Program-made: the position numbers and the translations under genes | Part shown: piece after piece, positions 7,856 through 47,764 of the stretch | Position numbering within the stretch: the first letter of the stretch is position 1 | Layout of the letters: each line of letters opens with the position of its first letter | DNA from: an uncultured Fodinibius sp. | Lineage (GTDB): Bacteria; Bacteroidota; Rhodothermia; Balneolales; Balneolaceae | Assembly (NCBI GenBank): GCA_913056455.1 | Contig: CAJXMJ010000002.1 | Location: forward strand, 248,001 to 312,000 | DNA: 64,000 bases | Direction: 5' to 3' | The notes under the pieces: generated by a model | Told to the model about the DNA's origin: nothing | The model's database searches: none | The model's input: the letters and a program-made list of their open reading frames with translations, nothing else

Positions 7856-9064
7856 ATGAGTTCTCGCAATCTCGTTGTGGCATTTGGCGGTGTTTCTCCG
7901 GAGCATGAAGTATCAGTGCTCACAGCTATGCAGGTCATAGCTTCTCTGAAAGAAACAAACTATAATATCCTTCCGCTTTACATTTCAAAATCGGGCCGAT
8001 GGCTAACAGGTACTCCCCTTCTGGAAATGGAAAACTATCAAGATCTTGATGAGCTCAAAGGGCAGGCTACTGATTGTACTTTTTCTCATGACAATTTAGG
8101 AAAACCGGTACTACTGGAAACAGAGAAGAAGGGCTTCTTCAATACATCTGAAAGCTATCCGATTTATGCCCTTATCCCGGCTTTTCACGGCTCGGAAGGA
8201 GAAAACGGGGCTTTTCAGGGCACATGCGAAATGTACAACATTCCCTATGCAGGCAGTGGCGTTTTTTCGTCAAGCCTGGGAATGGACAAAATAAAAGCGA
8301 AAGATATATGTCGATCTCATGACATTCCTGTTGTAGAGGGATTTGACTTCTTTGAATCAGAATGGGTTAAAGATCAACAATCTATTTTGACGCTTGCAAA
8401 ACAGCTCGGCTATCCCGTCATCTTGAAACCCGTCAACTTAGGCAGCAGTATTGGCGTTTCAAGAGCTGAACATGAAGATGAACTTGTTGAGGCCGTAGAA
8501 ACAGCTTTTCGTTATGATGAGAATCTGATGGTTGAAAAAGCCATTTCGCCCTTGGTTGAGATTAACTGCTCGGTGTTGGGTACGGTCCATAACCTCCAAA
8601 CAAGTGTTTGTGAACGTCCGCTCGGCCAAGACGAGACGCTTTCTTTCGAGGACAAGTATCAGTCCGACAACGGATCCCAAAAAGGAATGGCATCAGCCGA
8701 TCGTGAAATTCCCGCAGATATTTCGGATAAACTTACAAAAAGCATTCAGTCGCTTTCAGCGAAGATTTTCAAACTATTTAGAGCCTCAGGCATCGCCCGA
8801 CTCGATTTCTTAATCAATGGAGATACCAAGGAGCTCTATTTTAATGAAATTAACACCATCCCGGGTTCATTCTCATTTTACCTTTGGGAAGAAAGCGGAA
8901 TGAATATGCGCGAATTAATGCTAAAGTTAATTGACATAGCTACCGAACAGCATCAGAAAAAGGTCGGAAGGATCCGTTCTTATGATACAAACCTTCTCAA
9001 CGAAAAAGCTGTTAAAGGAATTAAGGGCTTAAAAGGAGCTCAACAAGAATCGTCGGACAAATAA
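7856..9064 (+). CDS. ddl: D-alanine--D-alanine ligase
   Basis: ATP-grasp ligase that makes the D-Ala-D-Ala end of the peptidoglycan stem in the cytoplasm. Motifs: GVSPEHEVSVLTAM at the N-terminus, HGSEGENGAFQGTCE, the grasp segment PVILKPVNLGSSIGVS, and the metal and substrate loop NEINTIPGSFSFYLWEESG. A long insert makes it DdlA-like rather than the short DdlB form, and about 30 basic residues trail the core (402 residues in all). The lipoprotein gene follows after 23 bases and probably shares the transcript. Confidence 0.95.
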   Translation: MSSRNLVVAFGGVSPEHEVSVLTAMQVIASLKETNYNILPLYISKSGRWLTGTPLLEMENYQDLDELKGQATDCTFSHDNLGKPVLLETEKKGFFNTSESYPIYALIPAFHGSEGENGAFQGTCEMYNIPYAGSGVFSSSLGMDKIKAKDICRSHDIPVVEGFDFFESEWVKDQQSILTLAKQLGYPVILKPVNLGSSIGVSRAEHEDELVEAVETAFRYDENLMVEKAISPLVEINCSVLGTVHNLQTSVCERPLGQDETLSFEDKYQSDNGSQKGMASADREIPADISDKLTKSIQSLSAKIFKLFRASGIARLDFLINGDTKELYFNEINTIPGSFSFYLWEESGMNMRELMLKLIDIATEQHQKKVGRIRSYDTNLLNEKAVKGIKGLKGAQQESSDK

Positions 9065-9087
9065 TTATTAACTATAATTTTCGGATC

Positions 9088-10593
9088 ATGTCATTATTTA
9101 GCTCGCAAAACTATCTACCTGTACTCATTGTATCATTGTTGCTGCTATGGGGTTGCAAACAACCCGAAACGGTTGTTATTGATGATTCCCCCACCGTTAT
9201 GGCTCCTTCTGATACCACTGAGCAGTATCCGACCGCCGATGACGATTCGGAGTTCCGAAAACTTGTTATCGGTGAATACCAACCCATATCAAGTTTTGAT
9301 CCTCTGCTCGCTGATAATGGAGCAACGATGCGGAGCCTGCAACTAATTTATGAGGGACTTGTCCGCCTTGATACCAACGGGGATATTATACCTGCGATAG
9401 CAAAAAACTGGAATATCAGTAATGATTCACTTTCCTATACATTTACCCTTAATCAAGATATTTACTATCACGACAGTGACGTTTTCAGCACGGGTACCGG
9501 ACGACGACTCACCGCCCAAGATGTGAAGTTTGTATTTGAACGAATGGCCAAAGCCGGCAACCCACCTACAGCAGCAAAGCTGTTTTGGAATATTAAAGGT
9601 TTTGAGCCTTTTTACCAGGAACAGCATAAGGTTTATGATCCCCAAAAAAGAACGCTATCGGATATCTCAGGCATCCAAACCCCAAATGACAGTACTGTCG
9701 TTTTTAAACTCCATGAGCAAGATCCTCAGTTTTTAGAAAAACTGGCCACCCCCTATGCCCTCATCTATCCGCAGGAAGCTGTCAATGCCACACAAAATAC
9801 TTTTGCTCCCGTCGGTACGGGTCCATTTACCCTTTCATCTCAAAGAGCAGATTCAACTTATATCTTTGCCAAATCTCAAAAATATCATGCTTCTGCCTCC
9901 ATCAAACTAAACAGAGTTGATATTCTTACAAGTAGCTCTGAATCTAACCTCATGAAACAAATGGGATCGGGCGAAATCCATCTGCTTCCCGAGCTTGGGC
10001 CCAATATAATTAAGAATGTGACTTCAACTGCGGGATCACTTAAAACAGGATTTAGTGATCGATACACGTTAACGAAACGGGACCAGTTTTACGACGTCAT
10101 AATCCGTTATAATCCGGCTGCAAATATTTCTAATGCAAATGCCAAACGCCTCTCACAGTTGGCCTATAGCAAAACCTCATCTTACTTTGAACAACTGCCG
10201 GGCTCCCTCGTCACTGCTGACTCTACTGCAAGTAAACTTTCTTCGGACTCAACCCTTACTGTGAAAAATCTGTATTCGGTTTTCTCGGAAGACCCATTTA
10301 CACGGACATACCTGGGAAACCTTTCTAGAATATTAAATCAACAGGGAGTCAATCTGGAAATGACCAAATTTCGAATCCCTACAAGAAACACCGACCTGTG
10401 GGTCACTCAGCATTCCCCGCTCATTAATGACAATAAGGATAAGTTAAAAGATAGTTATCCCGAGTTATGTCGCTTTCGGGTGTATCCTACGGCACTACAG
10501 CGCAACGAAATAACTGGACTTGATTTCAATCGATACGGATGGTGGCTTGACTTACGCGATGTTTCCCTCCCCACTCTAGACAAATTAAATTAA
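9088..10593 (+). CDS. Peptide-type ABC transporter substrate-binding lipoprotein (family 5)
   Basis: The N-terminal signal ends in the lipobox LLWGC (Cys23), so the mature protein is lipid-anchored. The rest is a family 5 solute-binding protein (DppA/OppA/NikA fold): FDPLLADNGATMRSLQLIYEGLVRLD, PAIAKNWNISNDSLSYTFTL and TAQDVKFVFERM are its standard landmarks. Ligands of the family are short peptides, nickel or haem; nothing here decides between them. No permease or ATPase gene is adjacent. It sits 23 bases after ddl and 4 bases before nadK, which suggests one transcript; a link to recycled wall peptides is only a guess. Confidence 0.85.
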   Translation: MSLFSSQNYLPVLIVSLLLLWGCKQPETVVIDDSPTVMAPSDTTEQYPTADDDSEFRKLVIGEYQPISSFDPLLADNGATMRSLQLIYEGLVRLDTNGDIIPAIAKNWNISNDSLSYTFTLNQDIYYHDSDVFSTGTGRRLTAQDVKFVFERMAKAGNPPTAAKLFWNIKGFEPFYQEQHKVYDPQKRTLSDISGIQTPNDSTVVFKLHEQDPQFLEKLATPYALIYPQEAVNATQNTFAPVGTGPFTLSSQRADSTYIFAKSQKYHASASIKLNRVDILTSSSESNLMKQMGSGEIHLLPELGPNIIKNVTSTAGSLKTGFSDRYTLTKRDQFYDVIIRYNPAANISNANAKRLSQLAYSKTSSYFEQLPGSLVTADSTASKLSSDSTLTVKNLYSVFSEDPFTRTYLGNLSRILNQQGVNLEMTKFRIPTRNTDLWVTQHSPLINDNKDKLKDSYPELCRFRVYPTALQRNEITGLDFNRYGWWLDLRDVSLPTLDKLN

Positions 10594-43514: not shown

Positions 43515-43796
43515 TTACTCTCCAGATTTCTCTTCTAACAACGGCAGTTCGGAGTCTTCTCCTTCCGTAAGCTCATAGCCCCACTTTTTGAGCAACGGTT
43601 TCTCCATGGATTCATCGCGATATTCATCGGGAATCAGGATAGGAATTCCATAGATCACCGGAAAGTAGCGGCCGCATTCAGCACAGCTCAGGAGAGCTTC
43701 GAGAATTTCGCCTTCTTCACCTTCATTAATGATATCGATATCCAGGTCATGTTTATCGATCGGACAGCACAGTTTTTTCAGTAATGATTCAGTCAT
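43515..43796 (-). CDS. Trm112-like zinc-ribbon protein
   Basis: A 93-residue protein whose core reads LLKKLCCPIDKHDLDI, then LSCAECGRYFPVIYGIPILIPDEY: the Trm112/YcaR pattern with zinc cysteines at 10-11 and 38/41. In eukaryotes and archaea Trm112 binds and activates SAM methyltransferases, and E. coli YcaR partners a tRNA methyltransferase. Here it is the last gene of a TPP-riboswitch operon whose first gene is a SAM methyltransferase, so it may be that enzyme's activator (inference). An acidic tail of about 25 residues follows the core. Confidence 0.85.
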   Translation of the reverse strand: MTESLLKKLCCPIDKHDLDIDIINEGEEGEILEALLSCAECGRYFPVIYGIPILIPDEYRDESMEKPLLKKWGYELTEGEDSELPLLEEKSGE

Positions 43797-43810
43797 TTTT
43801 TTATCTTTTT

Positions 43811-43867
43811 AACCACTAAGACACATAGAGTATTATGCTTAGTGATCTTAATATTCTCTTAGTGGTT
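43811..43867. repeat. Inverted repeat inside the thiamine-linked operon
   Basis: AACCACTAAGA and TCTTAGTGGTT pair perfectly over 11 bases around a 35-base AT-rich centre, filling most of the gap between the last two genes of the operon. Similar AACCACTAAGACAC-type repeats are dispersed in Bacteroidota genomes, as I recall. It could trim the message before the Trm112-like gene. Confidence 0.6.
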
Positions 43868-43871
43868 ATGC

Positions 43872-44507
43872 CTATTCCTTCAACGTCTGTTTGTATTTTT
43901 TCGTTATTTTTCGAGGCTCTTTTGAATTCAGAATCCCCGAAATCACCGCTACGCCGTTAAAATCTAACTCATCAAGTTCACCAATATTTTCGGGCGTAAT
44001 TCCACCGGACAAAAACAGCGGCATATCTGTGATTCCTCGGGCCTTTCGTACCGTTTCAGGCTGTACAATGGGACAGCTTTCCACCGAAGGCGACGGGAAC
44101 ATCGCGCAGAATGAGACGTAATCGAAATCATGATCTTCGGCCCATTTAACGACCTCCAGATCGTTGCTGCATGTGATTCCGGCGATAAAATCGCAACCGA
44201 CTTCTTCTTTGATATGCTCGAAATTTTCAGGGATTGACTCAAAATGAATCCCGTGAACATCAGTATTTTTCAGTAGCTCCCAATCATCATTGATCAATAC
44301 CGGCACATTGTATTTGTCAGCCATCTGCTTGATATAGGTAATTAATTGCTCTTTATCATAGTCGTTCATCCCATCCGGCCAGTGGTTCCAGATCTGTAAA
44401 ATTCGGATACCACCTTCGAGCGACTGCTCAATTTTGTCCAGTAGTTCAGCCTGTTCCATCGTCGGATCAACGACCAAGTATATGCCGTTTAGTTTATTAT
44501 TTGTCAT
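43872..44507 (-). CDS. ThiE/TenI-fold protein with altered active site
   Basis: A 211-residue TIM barrel of the thiamine-phosphate synthase family: LNGIYLVVDP, VPVLINDDWELL, HGIHFES, GITCSNDLEVV and PLFLSGGITPENIGEL, ending VISGI. Compared with B. subtilis ThiE, the pyrimidine-diphosphate-binding QFREK is QIWNH (38-42), the GQED segment is lost, and the GPIYPTETK loop is CAMFPSPSV (134-142). The phosphate cradle (GGI, VIS) survives. It may be a TenI-like tautomerase or act on a related phosphate, rather than join HMP-PP and thiazole phosphate. Control by a TPP riboswitch keeps it linked to thiamine. Confidence 0.75.
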   Translation of the reverse strand: MTNNKLNGIYLVVDPTMEQAELLDKIEQSLEGGIRILQIWNHWPDGMNDYDKEQLITYIKQMADKYNVPVLINDDWELLKNTDVHGIHFESIPENFEHIKEEVGCDFIAGITCSNDLEVVKWAEDHDFDYVSFCAMFPSPSVESCPIVQPETVRKARGITDMPLFLSGGITPENIGELDELDFNGVAVISGILNSKEPRKITKKYKQTLKE

Positions 44508-44565
44508 AGATTCAACATTTTGTTTTAGTCATCTCGCTTGATCTCCTTCAAAAGGACTTTAAAAC

Positions 44566-45630
44566 TTACTTCCAGCCCTTCTCCATCGCTTTAAAAAATG
44601 CATTCCAATACGGATCATTACCATCGAACTCAAAGGTTTTTTCTTTTCCACTTTCAATAAGGATGGTTCCTTCTTTTAAATCCGTTAATTCACCAACCAC
44701 CGTTGCCGGGATCGACTGATCCTGCAGATGGCTGACCAAATTATGCTCTTGCCCATCGCTGACAGCCATAATCATTGATCCCGCTCCAACACAATAGCGA
44801 TGATCAATTTCAAAAAGCTCGCAAATATTTCGAGGCGCCTCTCCAACAGGCAGCCTGTCGCTGTCCACTCGAAAGCCACAACCCGAAGCTTCAGCCAACT
44901 CAGAAATACCGCCCAACAATCCCCCTTCTGTGACATCATGCATAGCTTTTAACTCCTTATTCGGGGCCAATACTTCAGTCGCCATAAGCGCATCCTGCAG
45001 CGATGAGGTACGATAAAAATTTGTGCAAGCCTGCTCATAGATATCAGAGCCACACTCCTCTTTCACTGTTTCAGGAAAACTCTTCGCCAGGATTGCGGAA
45101 GAAACCAATGCACTTTCTTTAGTTACTATGATTTTATCGCCCGGTTCGGCACCGTCACTTGTAATAATTTCATCCAGCGGTGCCTGCAAAAACATCGTAC
45201 CGCCCCCCGGCGTTGTCGAATCCTGATCGGGAACCTGCGCGGTATGTCCACCGGTTATAGCAATATCTAATTCTTCACACATCCGATGGATATGCGACCA
45301 ATAGGTCTTGAATTTTTCAAGTGTAAAATCTGCAGGCAGATTCAACGTAAACTGGGCATACTGTGGAGCAAAGCCGGTAGTAGCTAAATCGTTGACCAGC
45401 AAATGTACCGACAACCAGGCCGATTCCTTAAGTCCCAGAGAAGGAATTAACGAGAGCGGATCACTCGAAGTCGCCAAGCCATTACTATTTCCAAGATCTA
45501 TAACGGCTGTATCCACTCCGAATTTGGGACCGGTAATAACCTCACTGCGCTCTCGGCCATGTTGTGGGCCAATTATTTCCCGAAAAAGCTTGCTGTTGAT
45601 CTTTCCACTGCTGTCTTCAAATGCACTCAT
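44566..45630 (-). CDS. AIR-synthase-related (PurM/HypE/ThiL-like) protein
   Basis: A 354-residue ATP-dependent PurM-fold protein. The N-terminal half has FGVDTAVIDL (the GDDAAVI-like motif, residues 38-46), ATSSDPLSL and LLVNDLATTGFAPQY with Asn80-Asp81; the C-terminal half has LKAMHDVTEGGLLGGISELAEAS, near-universal in the superfamily. HypE, SelD, PurM and ThiL share this fold; ThiL phosphorylates thiamine phosphate to TPP. The GDDAA of true ThiL is GVDTA here, so I do not call it thiL. It starts two bases after the methyltransferase stop, a tight coupling. Confidence 0.78.
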   Translation of the reverse strand: MSAFEDSSGKINSKLFREIIGPQHGRERSEVITGPKFGVDTAVIDLGNSNGLATSSDPLSLIPSLGLKESAWLSVHLLVNDLATTGFAPQYAQFTLNLPADFTLEKFKTYWSHIHRMCEELDIAITGGHTAQVPDQDSTTPGGGTMFLQAPLDEIITSDGAEPGDKIIVTKESALVSSAILAKSFPETVKEECGSDIYEQACTNFYRTSSLQDALMATEVLAPNKELKAMHDVTEGGLLGGISELAEASGCGFRVDSDRLPVGEAPRNICELFEIDHRYCVGAGSMIMAVSDGQEHNLVSHLQDQSIPATVVGELTDLKEGTILIESGKEKTFEFDGNDPYWNAFFKAMEKGWK

Positions 45631-45632
45631 AG

Positions 45633-46370
45633 TTATTCGTTTTCCTCGACGTCAGTTAGCTTTACATGCAGTCCAAAAAAGTCGCCTATCGGCAGTCCCC
45701 AGCGCTGAACGGGAAACCATTTTGGAAGACCGGTAGCCGTCCACTCGATCTCGTACAGTCGTCCCTCCAATGCCTCGTGAATCGTACTAATCAGTTTCTT
45801 TGGCGTATAAAAATTAGCGGTTTCGTAATAGGGATTTGCCCCAAAAACCTCCTGCACTCGCCGGCGCATCACTTTTGTAGAATTGCGATTCATGATACCG
45901 AAAATCATCCCGTACTTCCCAACTCGTACCGCCTCACGGATTACCTTGATTGGATCATCGTAATAGGCGAAGGTGGCAATGAAAGCCAGTGCATCAAAGG
46001 TATTATCCTTGAAGGGCATGTGATGCGAATCAGCCCACACCAGATCACCATCAAAATGTTTATTCCCCTCGCCCAGCATGAAAGGAGAAATATCTGCTCC
46101 TGTAGCTTCAATGCCGATTTCCTGCCACCAACGGGTAAAGCGCGTCGTTCCACAGCCGTATTCCAGCAGCGTCTCAACTCGCTCATCTTTTTGGATGAGT
46201 TTAGCCAATACTTTCTTCTGCCAGATCTCGGCCCGTTTATAGCGACCTTCGTAGTAGTCCTCATATACTTCGGTATGCTCACGATTGAAAAACCATTCCT
46301 CGCGCTCCTGCCACTGTTCAAGTTTTTTGGTGGCCAGCTCGAAATTTTTCTTTTGGATATTATTGCTCAT
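45633..46370 (-). CDS. SAM-dependent methyltransferase, first gene of the TPP-riboswitch operon
   Basis: A 245-residue class I methyltransferase: motif I LLEYGCGTTRFTRWW (68-82), acidic motif II Asp93 (ATGADISPFML), then WADSHHMPFKDNTFDAL (112-128). The N-terminal helix-rich segment REEWFFNREHTEVYEDYYEGRYKRAE and C-terminal GLPKWFPVQRWGLPIGDFFG are probably substrate-specific. The substrate is unknown. It is the gene nearest the TPP aptamer, and its partners are a PurM-like and a ThiE-like protein, so a thiamine precursor, analogue or breakdown product is the natural suspect. Confidence 0.82.
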   Translation of the reverse strand: MSNNIQKKNFELATKKLEQWQEREEWFFNREHTEVYEDYYEGRYKRAEIWQKKVLAKLIQKDERVETLLEYGCGTTRFTRWWQEIGIEATGADISPFMLGEGNKHFDGDLVWADSHHMPFKDNTFDALAFIATFAYYDDPIKVIREAVRVGKYGMIFGIMNRNSTKVMRRRVQEVFGANPYYETANFYTPKKLISTIHEALEGRLYEIEWTATGLPKWFPVQRWGLPIGDFFGLHVKLTDVEENE

Positions 46371-46440
46371 TGCATCATCATAACTAATTGTAAATAGCTT
46401 CGGCTTTCTTCCGGATAATAACAGGCAGGCAATCAGCCAG

Positions 46441-46465
46441 AAAAAAGCTCACAATGAGCGGACAG
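46441..46465 (-). terminator. Riboswitch expression-platform terminator
   Basis: Read on the minus strand, GCTCA-TTG-TGAGC followed by six T residues lies seven bases beyond the aptamer. The stem is short but correctly placed to stop transcription when TPP is bound. Confidence 0.65.
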
Positions 46466-46543
46466 GCTTCCCTACGCTGGTATTATCCAGATCAGGTCGA
46501 TGGGTGTGATCTCAGCCCCGCCATGCGAGGCACCCCTGAAAGC
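46466..46543 (-). promoter_or_regulatory. TPP riboswitch (THI element)
   Basis: On the minus strand the aptamer reads GGGGTGCC, GGGGCTGAGA, then ACCCATCGACCTGATCTGG and ATAATACCAGCGTAGGGAA, which are the invariant blocks of the thiamine pyrophosphate riboswitch (pyrimidine-sensing CTGAGA loop and the CTGGATAATACCAGCG helix). P1 closes with GCTTTC/GGAAGC. It lies about 100 bases ahead of the methyltransferase start with a terminator between, so TPP should switch the four-gene operon off. Confidence 0.95.
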
Positions 46544-46669
46544 TTAAAGTAATGATTTTAGAAGGATTGGTAAACAACTATTACATCGAATTCAGACCAT
46601 ATCTTTCTAAAAAGGGAACAGTTCCAACTATGGCTACACCAAGTCTGTTTATATCCGGTTACAATTCCT

Positions 46670-46819: not shown

Positions 46820-47764
46820 TCATTTCTTTTTCAAATAATGCATTGAAAAATAATTTTTCTCATCTGTCCATACTTTCTCTATCGAATACCAATCAGCAAC
46901 CAACTCTTCAAATTCCTCAAGGCTGTATTTATATGAATTTTCGGTATGAATAGATTCTCCCTCCTCAAACCCAATTTCATGATCTCCGACAGAGACCATC
47001 TGTTTATCTGTTGATACCAAGTGCATTTCAATCCGTCCGGCCCCTTCATTATAAAATGCCTTATGGCGAAATTTTTCGATCTCAAAGTTCGCATCCAGCT
47101 GACGATTAATGTGAGCCAATATATTTTTATTGAACTGAGCTGTAACACCCTGCTGATCGTTATAGGCCGATTCGAGAACATCTATCTCTTTCTTGAGATC
47201 TACACCGATAAGCATTTCTGAGTTTTCACCCGTTATACCGGCGATATTTCTTAAAAGTTCCTGCGCCTCTTGTGGATCAAAATTGCCAATTGTTGACCCC
47301 GGAAAAAATACGACCTGATTTTGACGTGATCCCTCTGTAATTGGTAATTCAAAACGGGATGTATAATCTGCAAAAACAGGGATGATAGATATCTTCGGAT
47401 ATTCCAAACGCAACCGGTTAACGGTTTTCAATAAAAATTCTTCAGAAATATCCACCGGGATATATGTGGAAAGGTATGACAACTCTTCAAGTAAAAACCG
47501 AGTTTTGTAACTGCTTCCACTACCCAGTTCTATCAGCATTACATCTGAACCAATATAGTCTGCAATTTCTTTGATATTTTTTTGCAGAATTTCCTTTTCG
47601 CAGCGAGTTAGATAGTATTCGTCAAGGCGGGTAATCTGTTCAAACAAATCTGATCCCTTCTCGTCATAGAAATACTTGCTGGGAAGCTGTTTTTGAGACT
47701 TTGACAATCCCTCCGCTACCTCTTTCTGCATGAGATTGTCATCAACTGATGAAAAATCTTCCAT
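46820..47764 (-). CDS. egtD: EgtD-type histidine N-alpha-methyltransferase
   Basis: A 314-residue SAM methyltransferase of the Methyltransf_33 family. LIELGSGSSYKTRFLL (78-92) is the EgtD version of motif I, VVFFPGSTIGNF carries the conserved Asn161, and IHTENSYKYSLEEF near the end supplies the substrate-binding Glu. EgtD trimethylates histidine to hercynine, the first step of ergothioneine synthesis. No egtB-type sulfoxide synthase is in the window, so the end product is uncertain. Family is firm; substrate is inferred. Confidence 0.88.
   Translation of the reverse strand: MEDFSSVDDNLMQKEVAEGLSKSQKQLPSKYFYDEKGSDLFEQITRLDEYYLTRCEKEILQKNIKEIADYIGSDVMLIELGSGSSYKTRFLLEELSYLSTYIPVDISEEFLLKTVNRLRLEYPKISIIPVFADYTSRFELPITEGSRQNQVVFFPGSTIGNFDPQEAQELLRNIAGITGENSEMLIGVDLKKEIDVLESAYNDQQGVTAQFNKNILAHINRQLDANFEIEKFRHKAFYNEGAGRIEMHLVSTDKQMVSVGDHEIGFEEGESIHTENSYKYSLEEFEELVADWYSIEKVWTDEKNYFSMHYLKKK

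Follow-up and report, generated by a model that had tools for sequence, protein, structure and literature searches.

What does a thiamine pyrophosphate (TPP) riboswitch control when the genes behind it do not form a known thiamine pathway? This question is raised by a four-gene operon found in a window of 64,000 nucleotides (the whole stretch analysed, positions 248,001 to 312,000 of contig CAJXMJ010000002.1, assembly GCA_913056455.1) from an uncultured Fodinibius sp. Behind a TPP aptamer, the operon encodes an S-adenosylmethionine (SAM)-dependent methyltransferase, a HypE/ThiL-type enzyme, a ThiE/TenI-type barrel and a Trm112-like protein, an arrangement which is conserved in two phyla. We give about even chances to the reading that this operon is an undescribed, TPP-repressed thiamine salvage or repair module, while any particular chemistry proposed for it would be improbable.

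All the elements of the operon lie on the minus strand. The aptamer (46451-46547) scores 59.4 bits with the Rfam model RF00059 (E 4e-9), above the gathering score of 54.3, and belongs to this family. It precedes the genes of a class I SAM-dependent methyltransferase of 245 residues (45633-46370, PF08241), a PurM-superfamily HypE/ThiL-type enzyme of 354 residues (44566-45630, AIRS and AIRS_C in Pfam), a ThiE/TenI-type barrel of 211 residues (43872-44507, PF02581) and a Trm112-like protein of 93 residues (43515-43796, PF03966), with only two bases between the first two genes. The five Pfam domain matches in the four proteins exceed the curated cut-offs (Methyltransf_11, 7e-16; AIRS, 2e-11; AIRS_C, 4e-22; TMP-TENI, 9e-33; Trm112p, 1e-5), bearing out the aptamer and the four families named in a preliminary description of this locus made from the sequence. 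Searches of the four proteins with Pfam and NCBIfam revealed no known thiamine biosynthesis or transport gene besides the ThiE-family one, in agreement with the earlier view that this is not a classical thi operon. The terminator had been called unmistakable, which was an overstatement: the terminator-like hairpin at 46447-46459 (-), a possible expression platform, consists of 5 bp followed by T6, and the scan gave one such hairpin versus a mean of 0.6 in shuffled sequences. Similar hairpins occur in 24 of the 80 leaders of related loci, compared with 112 of 1600 shuffled leaders. As a terminator, the hairpin of the window is weak, and it is not conserved in general.

The conservation of the operon was examined at two scales. 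The order set comprised 78 genomes, the window's own and relatives within the order, and was queried with the HypE-like protein. Orthologues with 64-100% identity were present in ten genomes (hereafter, genomes with the operon are termed holders), all ten with the four genes in a row, the contig of G013 beginning within the methyltransferase gene. The aptamer stood ahead of the operon in the nine holders with upstream DNA to examine. A methyltransferase profile was also searched against a collection of 84,980 species, and the best 80 of 204 relatives, hereafter the named loci, carry titles which are all from Balneolota or Bacteroidota, including Aliifodinibius, Gracilimonas, Pontibacter, Algoriphagus, Pedobacter, Arenibacter, Salegentibacter, Mucilaginibacter, Chitinophaga and other genera. 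In 78 of them, all four genes share the same order and strand, the two others (L079 and L121) being truncated by contig ends. With a covariance model, R1, built from 16 aptamers, a TPP aptamer was found upstream of the methyltransferase gene in 80/80 named loci, its end lying 39-195 bases (median 69) from the start of the gene. The 11 lowest-scoring of these aptamers all pass the gathering score of Rfam's own model; with the Rfam model, the operon aptamer of G086 (L090) reaches 54.0 bits, marginally short of the required 54.3. Six of the ten Balneolales copies (G003, G009, G028, G036, G046 and G074) are apparently the same DNA as L072, L073, L074, L077, L078 and L082, and since the aptamers of these six copies were among the 16 used for R1, 74 of the 80 aptamers are independent of the model. 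Because 78 of the 80 loci share the arrangement and all 80 have the aptamer, it is beyond chance.

That the four genes belong together had been deduced from their tight spacing, and they do form a unit with the riboswitch across two phyla. The preliminary description had also named two findings that would count against it, a set confined to one genome with shuffled neighbours and a riboswitch normally driving a classical thi gene lost here. Neither was observed, as gene order is kept in 78/80 loci and the aptamer precedes the methyltransferase gene in 80/80. A classical thi operon reduced in this one genome was likewise rejected, the same 78 loci being alike. No gene family besides the four recurs nearby in more than 12 of the 80 named loci; the sole recurrent additional neighbour is of the ABC (ATP-binding cassette) ATPase type, present in 12 loci at scattered positions and on both strands, and a larger cluster was rejected. 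When start codons were picked by script, adjacent genes most often overlapped by 4 bases, at each of the three junctions (28/79, 31/78 and 38/78). The four proteins have correlated distance matrices (r 0.59-0.85, none of 999 permutations being as high), as expected of a co-inherited unit, for which shared descent of linked genes alone would suffice. Searches of plasmids with the methyltransferase and ThiE-like queries gave no clear further copy, with one match at 32% and 18 ThiE-like matches below 60% identity. In two Arenibacter species, operon and riboswitch are duplicated (L102/L107, on one contig, and L104/L115).

Among the four proteins, the methyltransferase is the most conserved, with 124 positions at least 95% conserved across 81 sequences and a mean pairwise identity of 0.77, versus 0.56 for the HypE-like, 0.45 for the ThiE-like and 0.52 for the Trm112-like protein. 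It belongs to PF08241 (59.1 bits for a cut-off of 21.2) and has a conserved glycine-rich motif, and Bud23-type chains are among its sequence matches. Its structure model has a predicted local distance difference test (pLDDT) score of 59, too poor for fold claims, and its structural matches are thus hints only; among them, the methyltransferase of the 6f5z complex ranks ninth. The Trm112-like protein belongs to PF03966 (25.9 versus 22 bits) and misses the equivalog cut-off of NF038101, the Trm112 methyltransferase partner (60.8 versus 77 bits). Its best PDB matches are Trm112-type chains, 6zxw and 6f5z, and, judging from these similarities, it is a probable partner of the methyltransferase.

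The second protein had been described as PurM/HypE/ThiL-like. The assignment to the PurM superfamily stands and can be refined, HypE being the nearest relative and ThiL the next: a good structure model (pLDDT 93) matches HypE (PDB 3vys) first, with an E-value of 8e-24, and then ThiL (3c9u, 3e-22). Both cut-offs are missed, for HypE (TIGR02124) with 78.6 versus 251.6 bits and for ThiL (TIGR01379) with 80.2 versus 184.15 bits. Asp40, Asp57, Asp81, His129 and Asp232 are present in all 80 sequences, and the acidic residues of the ATP/Mg site are retained. In HypE, a C-terminal cysteine accepts the carbamoyl group. None of the 80 HypE-like sequences ends with a cysteine, 76 of them have none within the last ten residues, and GGH is found where the aligned ThiL and HypE sequences carry an aspartate.

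The TMP-TENI domain of the ThiE-like protein is well over the Pfam cut-off, while the cut-offs for the ThiE equivalog (TIGR00693, 110.2 versus 145.1 bits) and for the TenI thiazole tautomerase (NF005819, 47.8 versus 251 bits) are missed. Gln38 (79/79), Asn73 (77/79), Gly168 and Gly169 (79/79) and Ser190 (78/79) are retained, the glycine pair and the serine preserving the phosphate clamp. The altered positions, Trp40 (77/79), the varied residue 74, Pro93 (72/79) and Ala, Val or Ser at 142 (77/79), align with what we take to be the pyrophosphate and Mg site of ThiE. Two of them, 40 and 142, correspond to Arg59 and Lys159 of ThiE, which, in our assumed numbering and roles, belong to the pyrophosphate site; according to the alignments, the ThiE-like protein lacks these two residues. 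The earlier proposal of lost substrate residues is thereby sustained, the protein being altered where ThiE presumably binds pyrophosphate. This altered site argues against simple coupling of hydroxymethylpyrimidine (HMP) pyrophosphate (HMP-PP), and two invariant cysteines, Cys134 and Cys145 (79/79), together with the ATP site of the HypE-like protein, hint at another chemistry.

Which thiamine genes accompany the operon was examined in the genome of the window, G000 (3.28 Mb, 95.9% complete), and in other holders. In G000, a separate ThiL passes its cut-off (239.7 bits), a thiamine pyrophosphokinase (TPK) is present, and a profile search of the genome returned no ThiC match. Apart from the operon gene, no ThiE-family match there reaches the cut-off, the one other match scoring 24.4 bits over a partial profile. 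For ThiC and a second ThiE, 49 holder genomes were searched, drawn from 50 of the 80 named loci with L122 left out; the counts of absence concern mostly draft genomes. ThiC is missing from 46 of them and present in three (G103, G106 and G124), of which the G103 and G124 neighbourhoods, inspected by eye, resemble complete thi operons. A further ThiE-family match (40 bits or more) is missing from 41 and present in eight, including all three genomes with ThiC; in Pedobacter, Mucilaginibacter and Arenibacter, the additional ThiE-family genes sit in genomes without ThiC. ThiL is above cut-off in all 59 genomes tested, 56 holders and three Balneolota non-holders. TPK was found in none of 47 Bacteroidota holders, in 9/9 Balneolota holders and in the 3/3 Balneolota non-holders. 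For comparison, the class to which G104 belongs was sampled evenly, with at least one holder included, and 63 of 296 genomes have TPK; against this sample, its lack in the Bacteroidota holders is only moderately unusual (Fisher p 6e-5, uncorrected for kinship).

Within the window's genus, four of 12 genomes have only the operon, seven only a classical thiE, none both and one neither, an exclusion with a Fisher p of 0.01, uncorrected for kinship. The idea that the operon replaces thiE is consistent with this genus, but 3 of the 49 other holders also have ThiC. Two of the seven classical congener operons were examined, L059, with a TPP aptamer ahead, and L058, whose fetched stretch starts at thiD. 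NCBIfam names thiD and tenA in L058; in both, Pfam identifies thiE-family pairs, and thiO and thiG were assigned by eye. In the order set, 16 of the 78 genomes have a classical thiE and none matches ThiC, so that the known route to HMP seems closed to the order set. A side observation concerns L063, where a 640-residue frame (7901-9823, +) has a ThiE-family match followed by a PurM-superfamily match, likely a ThiE-ThiL fusion, and adjoins a gene resembling thiM by eye.

Other TPP sites of the holders point to uptake. They were scanned in 38 chosen holders; left out were the eight genomes having a second ThiE-family match, a further ten of the 49, and G013, G036 and G074. From this set of 38, 27 holders were examined, and in 24 of them a TonB receptor lies downstream of another TPP site. 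In the exceptions, G098, G100 and G112, one second TPP site each was examined and had no TonB receptor, the count covering that site. A PnuC-type transporter and a NadR-like kinase occur in 7 of 20 holder regions (up to 19 kb) around a second TPP site, the Pedobacter pair being recognized by Pfam as NMN_transporter and AAA_28. In Pedobacter L217 (1748-6857), the order is PnuC-type transporter, NadR-like kinase, TonB receptor and second ThiE-family gene, a cluster which may serve to take up and phosphorylate thiamine in this TPK-lacking Bacteroidota genome. Such a transporter and kinase could yield thiamine monophosphate (TMP). We had considered the operon as the sole TMP source of the Bacteroidota holders, which have no TPK and mostly no ThiE, and rejected it: the argument from necessity fails because this pair, found in 7 of the 20 regions, could make TMP.

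Judged by gene content, most holders lack the known route to HMP and appear to take up thiamine or a related compound. Together, these two features point to a salvage or repair step which feeds thiamine or TMP to ThiL. TPP riboswitches usually work such that, when TPP is short, the aptamer is empty and the unit is expressed. By this logic, TPP scarcity would leave the aptamer empty and give one coupled message for the four proteins. The methyltransferase and the Trm112-like protein would then form one holoenzyme, and the HypE-like protein, like its relatives, would use ATP to activate an oxygen on a small substrate. The barrel would rely on its retained phosphate clamp to bind a thiazole- or thiamine-phosphate-like compound, with Cys134 and Cys145 working where ThiE handles pyrophosphate. 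In this manner, the four proteins could start from a scavenged or damaged thiamine-related compound, perhaps imported through the TonB receptor under TPP control, and yield thiamine or its phosphate, to be completed to TPP by ThiL (by TPK in Balneolota). A bolder version, which we regard as possible but doubtful, is that the four proteins constitute a route to thiamine phosphate without ThiC or the HMP-PP coupling of ThiE, through SAM methylation and ATP activation, and are a main or reserve vitamin B1 source of many environmental Bacteroidota.

Several points weigh against a salvage or repair module. ThiC is also present in 3 of the 49 holders, and the operon is hence no simple substitute; one of the ten order holders, G036, carries both the operon and a classical thiE. 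Organisms which import thiamine may need no salvage, and the PnuC-type transporter and NadR-like kinase of 7 of the 20 regions could supply ThiL with TMP. All nine Balneolota holders tested have TPK, which speaks against necessity. Both ThiL and TPK also occur in the three non-holders tested from Balneolota, and the presence of ThiL therefore does not follow that of the operon. Furthermore, thiamine salvage has no obvious step for a SAM methyltransferase.

Other readings deserve consideration. The operon might be a partial de novo route replacing ThiC or ThiG, in which the HypE-like enzyme performs an ATP-dependent ring closure, the methyltransferase donates a methyl and the barrel carries out the joining or completion of the product. 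Ring-closing enzymes are known in the PurM superfamily, and aminoimidazole ribonucleotide synthetase is among the fold matches of the HypE-like protein. The gene content of the holders would also agree, ThiC being missing from 46/49 and a second ThiE (40 bits) from 41/49, yet ThiL being present in 56/56. However, three or four enzymes are few for a full synthesis, and a TPP-controlled TonB receptor in most holders examined is a sign of uptake, and this route is in our view unlikely. The same grade is deserved by an ordinary salvage operon for HMP and thiazole, whose diverged ThiE would still form TMP from HMP-PP: the TMP-TENI domain is well above the Pfam cut-off and the phosphate clamp is retained, but the score of 110.2 falls short of the 145.1 set for the ThiE equivalog, and Trp at the Arg59 position and Ala, Val or Ser at the Lys159 position (77/79 each; numbering and roles as assumed above) are difficult to reconcile with it, as is the finding that no additional family stands beside the four genes in more than 12/80 loci.

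Instead of supplying TPP, the operon might spare it during thiamine starvation, with the methyltransferase and Trm112-like protein modifying RNA, a protein or another metabolite and the other two proteins making or recycling a cofactor. Known Trm112 partners act mostly on translation factors, tRNA or rRNA, the methyltransferase matches Bud23-type chains among others, and conservation of this enzyme far above the other three is as with a large conserved partner. Kinship with ThiE and HypE/ThiL suggests instead a small phosphorylated substrate, and within the genus the operon and a classical thiE never occur together; such a starvation response appears improbable. Finally, the operon might handle a thiamine antimetabolite, an analogue which is made, altered or destroyed, and the synthesis of bacimethrin does involve a methyltransferase. 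TPP repression and retention as a lone operon are nevertheless ill-suited to detoxification, and the only recurrent extra neighbour is the ABC ATPase type of 12/80 loci, scattered and on both strands, making this the least credible of the readings considered and a very improbable one.

In the window, the upstream neighbour of the operon encodes an EgtD-type histidine methyltransferase (46820-47764, -; TIGR03438 above cut-off), and the downstream neighbour, on the opposite strand, encodes EttA. An EgtD-type gene is also found a few kb from the operon in L043 and L044, with no match in L045. Genome G000 has three TPP aptamer matches, that of the operon, one in a TonB receptor leader (L004) and an orphan (L005, 7153-7250, +), which scores 53.3 bits, slightly below the gathering score, and has a T-run at its end. 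The orphan is antisense to the 3' end of a P-type ATPase gene, and no same-strand gene of at least 110 residues is listed directly downstream. L135, L206 and L207 also contain TPP aptamer-like matches without a recognized thiamine gene closely downstream on the same strand, the one in L135 (8813-8904, -) being directed at the end of the operon's Trm112 gene.

Makers and needers of vitamin B1 are usually predicted from gene lists, and genomes which have thiL and lack the remaining steps are counted as non-makers. Two Flagellimonas strains are a published example of such scoring (PMC12688033). An invariant TPP-controlled operon in such genomes means either that the predictions are wrong or that an unknown salvage or repair step exists, and it supplies a concrete set of enzymes, in culturable genera, to settle the question. 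If the route independent of ThiC and ThiE were true, many environmental Bacteroidota scored as non-makers by gene lists would have a B1 source. Among the open-access literature matches listed, no title describes the four-gene set; most subscription journals were outside this scope and an earlier description is possible. In the table passage of a 2013 survey of TPP regulons, the Bacteroidetes lineage is Bacteroidaceae, and the word methyltransferase is absent from the accessible main text (PMC3766115), as it is from the accessible portion of a 2007 riboswitch survey (PMC2258182). The sampling of Bacteroidaceae, as that table passage gives it, may explain the operon's absence from the 2013 survey.

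Compared with known systems, the HypE-like protein shares with HypE (3vys) and ThiL (3c9u) the fold and the acidic ATP/Mg residues, and differs by missing both cut-offs, by GGH in place of Asp and, relative to HypE, by having no C-terminal cysteine. The barrel belongs to the same family as ThiE (PDB 1g4t and 3o16) and keeps Gln38, Asn73 (77/79), and the glycine pair and serine of the phosphate clamp; it differs by missing the ThiE cut-off, by altered residues at the presumed pyrophosphate/Mg site, and by Cys134 and Cys145 in 79/79 sequences. In the Trm112-Hvo_0019 complex of Haloferax volcanii (6f5z), each of two operon proteins matches one subunit, the methyltransferase there being itself labelled "putative" and its match to the operon enzyme being ninth, via the model of pLDDT 59. 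In Bacteroides, TPP riboswitches precede the thiamine operons thiSEGCHF-tenI, OMthi and pnuT-tnr3, as described in PMC5613172. The operon studied here resembles them by a TPP aptamer in the leader and a ThiE/TenI-family gene, and the TPP-controlled TonB receptor of most holders examined resembles OMthi (PMC5613172). Unlike these operons, it has no thiC, thiG, thiH, thiF, thiS, transporter or TPK gene, and instead carries a methyltransferase, a HypE-like enzyme and a Trm112-like protein.

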